Assembly (NCBI GenBank): GCA_022508285.1
Contig: JAFLVN010000001.1
Coordinates: 62,001 to 126,000 of the forward strand
Direction of reading: 5' to 3'
From: Clostridiales bacterium
GTDB lineage: Bacteria > Bacillota > Clostridia > Christensenellales > Borkfalkiaceae
Length of the DNA stretch: 64,000 nt
Shown: piece after piece, positions 14,853-48,937 of the stretch
How the letters are laid out: each line of letters opens with the position of its first letter
Numbering within the stretch: position 1 is the first letter of the stretch
Notes under the pieces: model-generated
The model's database searches: none
Seen by the model: the letters and a program-made list of their open reading frames with translations, nothing else
Told to the model about the DNA's origin: nothing
Program-made: the position numbers and the translations under genes

Positions 14853-14890
14853 CTCAAAGCGTTGACACGTCAAGCTTTGAGTAATATAAT
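14853..14890 (+). promoter_or_regulatory. Palindrome plus consensus promoter TTGACA-N17-TATAAT upstream of the TAGCCACAC element and FMN riboswitch
   Basis: CTCAAAGC...GCTTTGAG (14853-14881) encloses ttgaca (14862-14867); tataat at 14885-14890. Confidence 0.75.
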
Positions 14891-14891
14891 A

Positions 14892-15170
14892 TAGCCACAC
14901 GAGAATCGAACAGCACAAGGTTTTGGGGCGTTAAATGTCTTGATACGGCAGAACCCTCACTTGAAGTACGTCCTGTACGTCTGCGTTCGATTTCTTTGTC
15001 TCAATCCATTTTCCACTCCCAAAACTGCGAAGCATCTAAAAGTGCGCATTTTTTGGAGGTTTCAAGCGGAGAGAGCGCAGGCGTACTCGGCGGTACGACA
15101 AACGAACGGAGCGCAGAAAGAACAAAAAAGGCGCCTTTTAGACTTATGTTGTTCGATTCTCGTGTGGCTA
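14892..15170. repeat. TAGCCACAC element, copy 1 (279 bp, 21 bp perfect complementary ends, two nested sub-hairpins)
   Basis: TAGCCACACGAGAATCGAACA (14892-14912) versus TGTTCGATTCTCGTGTGGCTA (15150-15170); nested inverted repeats 14920-15025 and 15035-15142. Confidence 0.8.
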
Positions 15171-15184
15171 ACTACAATTCAAGG

Positions 15185-15307
15185 TTTTTCTTTGGGGCGG
15201 GGTGCAATTCCCCACCGGCAGTAAAGTCTGCGAAGCGCCGCAAGTTGCGGTGCCCGAACGGGTGCAATTCCCGTACCGACGGTATAGTCCGGATAGGAAA
15301 AGAAAAA
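15185..15307 (+). ncRNA. FMN riboswitch (RFN element)
   Basis: tttggggcggggtgcaattccccaccggcagtaaagtctgcgaagc...gcccgaacgggtgcaattcccgtaccgacggtatagtccggatagg matches the RFN consensus; upstream of ribU. Confidence 0.96.
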
Positions 15308-15347
15308 TGCACACATATATTGAATTTTGTGCTATTTTGATTTATTT

Positions 15348-46515: not shown

Positions 46516-46914
46516 ATGATGATAACAACAAAGGGCAGGAATGCCCTAAAAGTTATGATAGATTTGGCTCGGCACGAGGGCGAGGGGTACATATCCCTTT
46601 CCGATATCGCCGAGCGGCAGAACGAAAGCCTTAAATATTTAGAGGCTTCGGCAAAACAGCTTTCCACGGCGGGGCTTGTAGTTTCGGCAAGGGGCAAGAG
46701 CGGCGGCTATAAGCTCTCCCGCCCCGCAACAGACTACACCGCCGCCGAAATTCTCTTATCCGGCGAGGGCTCGCTTGCGCCTATAAGCTGTTTGGAGGAG
46801 GGTGCTGTTCCCTGCCACAATGCGGAAAACTGTTGCACGCTTCCTTTGTTTAAGGAATTAGACGACGTTATTATGACTTTTTTAACTTCTAAAAAACTTA
46901 CAGATTTAATTTAA
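46516..46914 (+). CDS. Rrf2 family transcriptional regulator (IscR-like)
   Basis: KGRNALKVMIDLARHEGEGYISLSDIAERQNESLKYLEASAKQLSTAGLV...RGKSGGYKLSRP, three C-terminal Cys. Confidence 0.92.
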   Translation: MMITTKGRNALKVMIDLARHEGEGYISLSDIAERQNESLKYLEASAKQLSTAGLVVSARGKSGGYKLSRPATDYTAAEILLSGEGSLAPISCLEEGAVPCHNAENCCTLPLFKELDDVIMTFLTSKKLTDLI

Positions 46915-46923
46915 ATTTCTGCT

Positions 46924-46960
46924 AATTCCTATTGACAAAATAGGAATTAAATTTTATAAT
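46924..46960 (+). promoter_or_regulatory. 25 bp palindrome plus TTGACA-N17-TATAAT promoter upstream of iscS-iscU
   Basis: AATTCCTAT-TGACAAA-ATAGGAATT (46924-46948); ttgaca 46932-46937; tataat 46955-46960. Confidence 0.8.
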
Positions 46961-46961
46961 G

Positions 46962-47243
46962 TAGCCACACTATAATAAATTAAAACTGCTCAAACGGTGG
47001 CTTTGCGCCGCTTTCCCTCCGCTGCTCCTTCTGCGTACGTCTTTGTACGCCTCAGTCGCCGCGAATATAAATCAATCGCAAATACACTCGTTTGAGTGCT
47101 TCGCAGTTTTGGGATAACGGATTTTGAGATTAGACAAGGAAAAGACCGCAGTTAATCCAAGGACGGATTGACAAGGGCTTTGACAAAGGATAAGCCAAAA
47201 GCCGTATTTCAAAACCACGTTATAATTTATTATAGTGTGGCTT
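46962..47243. repeat. TAGCCACAC element, copy 2 (282 bp, 20 bp perfect complementary ends)
   Basis: AGCCACACTATAATAAATTA (46963-46982) versus TAATTTATTATAGTGTGGCT (47223-47242); internal CTGCGTACGTCTTTGTACGC hairpin. Confidence 0.8.
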
Positions 47244-47270: not shown

Positions 47271-48464
47271 TTGAATAAAATTATCTACGTAGACAATGCG
47301 GCAACGACCGCAATGAGCGATAAGGCTATCGAGGCAATGACTCCCTATTTTAAGGGAGTGTACGGCAATCCTTCGTCGCTGCACACGGTGGGGCAGGTTG
47401 CCAAGGAAGCGCTCGATGAAGCCCGCACAAAAATAGCAAAGTGCTTAAACTGCGAGCCGAGGGAAATTTATCTCACGTCGGGCGGCAGCGAAGCGGATAA
47501 CCAGTGCATACGCTCGGCGGCTCTGCAAGGCGCAAAAAAGGGCAAAAAACACATAATTTCCACGGCGTTCGAGCACCACGCAGTGCTTCATACTCTCAAA
47601 AAATTAGAAAAAGAGGGCTTTGAAGTAGCGTACCTCGACGTGCACTCCAACGGGCTTGTGACGGCGAAAGAAGTTAAGGCGGCTATCCGCCCCGATACGG
47701 CGCTGGTTACGATAATGTATGCAAATAACGAGGTCGGCACAATCCAGCCCATTGCCGAAATCGGCAAGGTCTGCCGTGAGGCGGGCGTAATATTCCACAC
47801 GGATGCGGTGCAGGCTGTCGGGCATATTCCCGTTGACGTAAAGGCTGATAACGTGGATATGCTGTCGCTCTCGGCGCATAAGTTCCACGGACCGAAGGGA
47901 ATGGGTGCGCTCTATTGCAGGAGAGGACTGCCACTTTTGACCTTTATTGAAGGCGGTGCGCAGGAGCGTGGAAAGCGTGCGGGCACAGAAAATTTAGCCG
48001 GTGCTGCGGGCATGGCTGCGGCGCTGGAAGATGCTGTTGCAAATCTTGATGATAACGCAAAAAAATTGACAAGTTTACGCAATAAATTAATAGACGGGCT
48101 GTCGAAAATACCTCATTCCAAGCTCAACGGAGACAGAGATAGCCGGCTCCCCGGCAACGTGAATATGTGCTTTGAGGGAATAGAGGGCGAAAGCCTACTA
48201 CTTCTTCTCGACGCTAAGGGTATCTGCGCTTCGTCGGGCTCTGCCTGCACTTCGGGCTCGCTCGACCCCTCGCACGTACTTCTTGCGCTCGGACTCCCGC
48301 ACGAGGTTGCGCACGGCTCGCTTAGGCTTTCACTTTCCGAGGCAAACACCGAGGCGGATATCGACTATATCGTGGCGGAAGTGCCCAAGGTAGTGGAATA
48401 CCTCCGCAATATTTCCCCCGTTTGGGAAGAACTCGAAAAGGGACAAAGACCACATTTAATATAA
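47271..48464 (+). CDS. iscS: Cysteine desulfurase
   Basis: KIIYVDNAATTAMSDKAIEAMTPYFKGVYGNPSSLH; HKFHGPKGMGALYCRRG; ICASSGSACTSGSLDPSHVL. Likely TTG start at 47271. Confidence 0.95.
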   Translation: MNKIIYVDNAATTAMSDKAIEAMTPYFKGVYGNPSSLHTVGQVAKEALDEARTKIAKCLNCEPREIYLTSGGSEADNQCIRSAALQGAKKGKKHIISTAFEHHAVLHTLKKLEKEGFEVAYLDVHSNGLVTAKEVKAAIRPDTALVTIMYANNEVGTIQPIAEIGKVCREAGVIFHTDAVQAVGHIPVDVKADNVDMLSLSAHKFHGPKGMGALYCRRGLPLLTFIEGGAQERGKRAGTENLAGAAGMAAALEDAVANLDDNAKKLTSLRNKLIDGLSKIPHSKLNGDRDSRLPGNVNMCFEGIEGESLLLLLDAKGICASSGSACTSGSLDPSHVLLALGLPHEVAHGSLRLSLSEANTEADIDYIVAEVPKVVEYLRNISPVWEELEKGQRPHLI

Positions 48465-48493: not shown

Positions 48494-48937
48494 ATGGCTT
48501 TATACAGCGAAAAAGTTATGGACCATTTCACCAATCCCCGCAACATCGGCAAAATCGAGGACGCCGACGGCATAGGCGAGGTCGGCAACGCCAAGTGCGG
48601 CGATATAATGAAGATATATCTTAAAATCGAGAACGATATCATTGTCGACGTAAAATTCAACACGTTCGGCTGCGGCAGCGCAATCGCATCGTCGTCAATG
48701 GCTACCGAGCTCATAAAGGGCAAGCCCATATCCCAGGCTCTTGAGCTCACAAACAAGGCGGTTGCCGAGGCGCTCGACGGTCTGCCTGCACATAAGCTCC
48801 ATTGCTCGGTGCTTGCCGAGGAGGCAATCCGTGCGGCAATCAAGGACTACTACGACAGGCACGGCATCGCTTACGACAAGTCGCAGTTCCCCGACCCGCA
48901 TGACGAGGAAGAGGAACATAACTTCAACGAGGATTGA
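48494..48937 (+). CDS. iscU: Fe-S cluster assembly scaffold IscU/NifU-like
   Basis: YSEKVMDHFTNPRNIGKIEDADGIGEVGNAKCGDIMKIYLKIE...FNTFGCGSAIASSSMATELIKGK; LHCSVLAEEAIRAAIKDY. Confidence 0.95.
   Translation: MALYSEKVMDHFTNPRNIGKIEDADGIGEVGNAKCGDIMKIYLKIENDIIVDVKFNTFGCGSAIASSSMATELIKGKPISQALELTNKAVAEALDGLPAHKLHCSVLAEEAIRAAIKDYYDRHGIAYDKSQFPDPHDEEEEHNFNED

Follow-up and report, generated by a model that had tools for sequence, protein, structure and literature searches.

The window, a 64,000-nucleotide stretch of the genome of a Clostridiales bacterium, carries on its forward strand a gene for an Rrf2-family (IscR-like) regulator (46516-46914; Pfam PF02082, E 4e-30). It lies upstream of iscS, which encodes a cysteine desulfurase (47271-48464, forward strand; Pfam Aminotran_5) and is followed by iscU (48494-48937; Pfam NifU_N). 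The iscS promoter, TTGACA-17-TATAAT (46932-46960, forward strand), matches the consensus at 12 of 12 positions. Its -35 hexamer is overlapped by a palindrome without strand preference, TAATTCCTAT...ATAGGAATTA (46923-46949), which is seen in the sequence and in 30 orthologous leaders. Judging from sequence, this palindrome is probably an operator for the Rrf2 regulator. Past the promoter, a TA dinucleotide (46962-46963, forward strand) marks the 5' junction of an element whose 278-bp core (46964-47241, forward strand) belongs to subfamily A and scores 270.6 bits (E 3.5e-72) with model R1, a covariance model built from an alignment of 25 full-length copies from the genus. This TA is identified as the target by the flanks of other copies and by the empty sites of sister species; its 3' partner in the iscS copy has decayed (GGC-TT). 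The core starts and ends with terminal inverted repeats, the left one forming the 5' side of stem P1 (46964-46986) and the right one its 3' side (47219-47241), both delimited from alignment A1 (columns 1-23 for the left repeat). Enclosed between them, again on the forward strand, are the arm I hairpin (approximate limits 46989-47096, from RNAalifold and pair counts), a small conserved hairpin, TGC-NNN-GCA, at the junction (47097-47105, paired in 25 of 25 sequences) and the arm II hairpin with a covarying tip (approximate limits 47106-47215, from tip helix counts and single-sequence folds).

A second copy in the window, copy 1, belongs to subfamily B and lies in reverse orientation (14892-15170, reverse strand; core 14894-15168), with TA on both flanks. 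Its promoter (14862-14890) is likewise TTGACA-17-TATAAT with a 12/12 match, and downstream of it come an FMN riboswitch and the gene for an ECF transporter, assigned at the Rfam and Pfam level. Copy 1 parts this perfect consensus promoter from the FMN riboswitch (14862-15308), and the riboswitch leader is longer by about 280 nt. The first-pass annotation had delimited both copies correctly, the iscS copy (copy 2) at 46962-47243 (282 bp) and copy 1 at 279 bp. Both are indeed bounded by TAGCCACAC/GTGTGGCT, and the window contains 3 occurrences of TAGCCACAC where 0.2 would be expected; the next 12 bp differ between the copies, as had been reported, and the pairing of TATAATAAATTA and of GAGAATCGAACA with its own 3' partner is perfect. 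The 1-nt distance from TATAAT to the element was also read correctly for both copies. The further statement that only TAGCCACAC/GTGTGGCT is conserved was wrong: copy 1 is the same element reversed, GTGCTTCGCAGTTTTGGGA is common to both interiors, and one covariance model spans copy 1 (205 bits) and copy 2 (271 bits) end to end. No open reading frame of at least 90 amino acids lies wholly inside either window copy.

Within its own genome, the iscS copy is accompanied by three further full-length subfamily A copies that are 89-91% identical to it (four full copies in all) and occupy unrelated loci, and copy 1 by one further full subfamily B copy and fragments. In the genus, 37 of 93 genomes (species) contain matches to model R1, a single genome having as many as 18. 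Across the order, matches were obtained in 49 of the 396 genomes sampled, these 49 falling in 16 of 142 genera. End-sequence counts put the copy number at roughly 25-40 in each of three genomes (G287, G219 and G411). Those named records that have the core are assemblies of uncultured Clostridia, and one of them is labelled water-deer colon. There was no match that would indicate phage or plasmid carriage, and no earlier description of the family was found in the open-access literature searched.

The 100 copies that we examined are mostly 272-284 bp long, and the outer 16 pairs of their terminal inverted repeats are 88% Watson-Crick. TA is present on both flanks in 72 of 99 copies. The extreme ends are usually the conserved portion of an insertion sequence; in this family they are highly variable and fall into dozens of end-sequence types (GCCACAC, ACCAGATAATT, GGCAAGCTG, CTGTAAGGGA, AGTTTAGGAG, CGGGTATTC and others). 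Three copies in one genome (G394) are 100% identical and have unrelated flanks, and the element has therefore moved recently there. Larger variants of 318-634 bp hold extra whole hairpins in the arms (L329, L332, L333 and L335 in G287 and G219; L202-L204 in G091 and G035), and in one of them two similar hairpins follow each other in tandem; the element looks as though it grows by hairpin capture. At the other extreme are remnants of about 42-52 bp (L206, L207 and L008), consisting of the two ends only, the interior apparently deleted whole. The end of one locus (L281), ACGGGTTCGAGCCCCGCATGGC, resembles a tRNA T-arm plus acceptor end. A tRNA origin of the ends, considered for the T-arm-like TTCGA of L281 and copy 1, was rejected: ARAGORN called no tRNA at four loci.

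The orthologous iscS leaders were read in 30 genomes, and the promoter, the -35 palindrome and a CATACT stretch are conserved across all of these. In the five species with the highest iscS identity (G076, G080, G074, G066 and G079), the leader is without the element; four are plain and one has a different insert, and an R1 search of these five genomes found no element. Insertion polymorphism, which the first-pass annotation had named as a finding that would refute its reading if it had no effect on iscS expression, is present between species at this leader. The insertion site of the iscS copy reads TATAATG^TA^(T)TCATAC. In another genome (G026), an element with a different type of end lies 12 nt after TATAAT, at CATACTG^TA^AAAATAGG, and the leader of this genome minus the element and minus one TA has the leader length of its relatives. 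On this comparison of sequences, the two iscS-leader elements are independent insertions. Different, unrelated-looking foldable inserts are found downstream of the iscS -10 box in G079 (L227) and G024 (L240), and the iscS leader therefore looks like a recurrent insertion spot. The element had at first been predicted to be a transcribed 5' leader. With a consensus promoter before it and iscS-iscU after it, it is presumably transcribed; its reading as a dedicated iscS regulatory leader is not supported, given the sister species without it.

Overall, we consider the iscS-leader element to be a non-autonomous, MITE-like mobile DNA inserted at a TA just past the iscS -10 box, with a probability of roughly 85%. 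The family is MITE-like in size, against an upper limit of about 600 bp for such elements, and in terminal repeats, target duplication and copy number, and it has no coding capacity. The TA duplication, together with the inverted ends, suggests a DDE transposase of the cut-and-paste type, supplied in trans, which would recognise the ends and cut at TA. The usual TA-type family in bacteria is IS630. Mobilisation by IS630 in the manner of RUP was tried as a candidate and rejected, the DDE_3 domain (PF13358) being found in 0 of 25 carrier or related genomes versus 3 of 14 controls. No autonomous partner, in the form of an inverted end pair 0.7-5 kb apart, appeared among the matches listed for eight genus genomes or for the two high-copy genomes listed in full, all searched as draft assemblies, where long repeats can collapse. 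These two negative results and the variable extreme ends speak against the MITE-like reading.

We then quantified the proximity of the element to promoters, using 187 non-redundant element junctions and exact TATAAT as the motif. The null consisted of 7584 ends of intergenic TA sites in 464 kb of carrier genomes, with coding sequence masked by a simple ORF rule. An inward TATAAT 0-12 nt away was found at 20 of 187 ends (10.7%) compared with 276 of 7584 (3.6%), a 2.9-fold excess (P=3e-5); the two window copies from which the hypothesis arose are counted in the 20, and the figure without them is 18/185. That both window copies stand 1 nt from TATAAT is one instance of this looser 0-12 nt preference. 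Elements lying next to promoters occur in either orientation. Two causes may underlie the excess, a targeting of open promoters or the survival of insertions that do no harm. Survivorship alone, in which insertion elsewhere in a promoter is harmful and insertion just past the -10 box is tolerated, stands at about even odds. Consistent with it, an outward TATAAT (ATTATA) within 0-12 nt, where insertion would split the promoter, tends to depletion (2/187, 1.1%, versus 235/7584, 3.1%; P=0.13). By contrast, there is no excess in the zone of 13-39 nt, which frequently belongs to the 5' UTR as well: 6 were observed, and the near:far ratio of 20:6 differs from the 276:359 of the null (P=0.001). This lack of excess leans towards targeting, without deciding the matter.

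The second question concerns what keeps the stems paired. The element folds with -103 kcal/mol (z -7.3), and the opposite strand has a z of -7.4. In the consensus fold, the terminal stem, two long hairpin arms and the small TGC-NNN-GCA hairpin make a three-way junction. In many copies the opposite strand, too, is matched by model R1, with a lower score, and the layout is therefore nearly symmetric. Covariation of the arms, already proposed in the earlier reading, holds across the aligned related copies: 42 of 52 counted pairs changed on both sides in the 25-sequence alignment, which was made without structure fitting and from which the structure itself was derived. Both-side changes occurred in 19 of 20 pairs of P1, 13 of 17 of arm I and 5 of 7 of the arm II tip helix. 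The proportion of cells pairing was 94% versus 71% when shuffled, and the covariation score was 0.619 versus 0.197 when shuffled and at most 0.094 with partners slid. Selected RNA is expected to tolerate G-U and not A-C. In the outer 16 pairs of P1 in 100 copies, there were 58 G-U and 50 A-C (P=0.5), and taking one copy for each of the 56 end types gave 35 and 33; counts in the arms and interior were mixed. A small and crude tRNA control, with its register chosen to favour pairing, gave 6 G-U versus 0 A-C. The pair signature of an RNA strand, G-U in excess of A-C, was accordingly not found in P1. The near-equality of the two places the constraint at the DNA level, or makes it mutational.

A mutational origin would mean that polymerase template switching between the inverted arms keeps the stems perfect without function, in an element that is still mobile. 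Template switching has been reported for RNA genes, where it creates and mends stems (PMC8794818). In our data it fits the one-sided G-U states, which are far rarer than the many two-sided changes, the strand symmetry of the pair counts, and arms that gain whole extra hairpins or shrink to 42-52 bp hairpins. Nevertheless, we regard it as somewhat unlikely to be the whole explanation: mutation alone would not impose the length of about 280 bp and the three-arm layout that 16 genera have in common, and several arm positions never vary. The constant length and layout suggest some selection. What maintains arm complementarity at the DNA level might be selection for foldable ends, template-switch recopying of one arm, or both.

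A more radical possibility, which strikes us as doubtful, is that the element moves as folded DNA, with an undescribed recombinase that reads the three-way junction and not the end sequence; the ends would then drift, and the element would insert into DNA melted by RNA polymerase. Under such shape recognition, insertion into melted DNA would make the junctions cluster around the -10 box and start site. Finally, it is very improbable that the element is a structured RNA, riboswitch- or T-box-like, that regulates iscS and other genes in cis from their leaders. Strong covariation, a stable fold and the location, at iscS between the promoter and the start codon and in copy 1 ahead of the FMN riboswitch, speak for this, but the element is missing from sister-species iscS leaders, adjoins promoters in either orientation, stands before unrelated genes, has G-U no commoner than A-C (unlike the tRNA control), and gave nothing above the gathering score with Rfam covariance models, no match to a riboswitch or other known RNA family extending across it.

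Under the preferred reading, as a MITE-like insertion, the copy in the iscS operon would be a by-product that gives the mRNA a long structured 5' leader. Transcription would begin about 3 nt into the element, and the RNA would include the 23-bp terminal stem. This stem would be a plausible RNase III target, as with Correia elements (PMC10969869).

If confirmed, these results mean that small mobile elements of one family are abundant across an order of gut Clostridia that are uncultured. The family keeps its layout and length while its paired sequence turns over, which is the opposite of what insertion sequences usually show. The roughly 100 natural copies offer material to ask whether inverted-repeat covariation is selected or template-switched, and they carry the warning that covariation alone is no proof of functional RNA. 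The family also exemplifies repeated insertion at promoter start sites, with the iscS leader hit twice independently.

Several families of small bacterial repeats invite comparison. REP/REPIN sequences, which are associated with RAYT transposases, are hairpin-based non-autonomous repeats, the REPs being 20-40 bp; in contrast, the present family is 280 bp long, with TA flanks and long terminal repeats. The sequence of ERIC/IRU elements is conserved and forms one stem-loop, whereas our family has a three-way junction and sequence turnover in nearly every stem. In other respects these 127-bp elements of enterobacteria are similar, being palindromic and intergenic with TA termini, a stable transcript structure and no known transposase (PMC2229807, PMC10969869). 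RUP of Streptococcus pneumoniae (107 bp, IS630-Spn1) is also small and intergenic, with terminal inverted repeats and a TA target (PMC2229807). It has a likely IS630 donor (PMC2229807), whereas no IS630 domain was found in 25 genomes here; the present family is moreover 2.6 times longer, with a branched fold and ends that turn over. The CIR repeats of Caulobacter and Brucella, intergenic and about 110 bp long, have been described as two arms and a linker, as in our family, but are without a terminal stem and have an unproven target duplication (PMC2229807). The Correia/NEMIS elements of Neisseria (about 105-155 bp) share the TA-flanked inverted repeats, and one copy lies directly downstream of the mtrCDE promoter, its transcript being cut by RNase III (PMC2229807, PMC10969869). 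Correia elements carry their own promoters and an IHF site, whereas the promoter beside the elements described here is host sequence outside the element.
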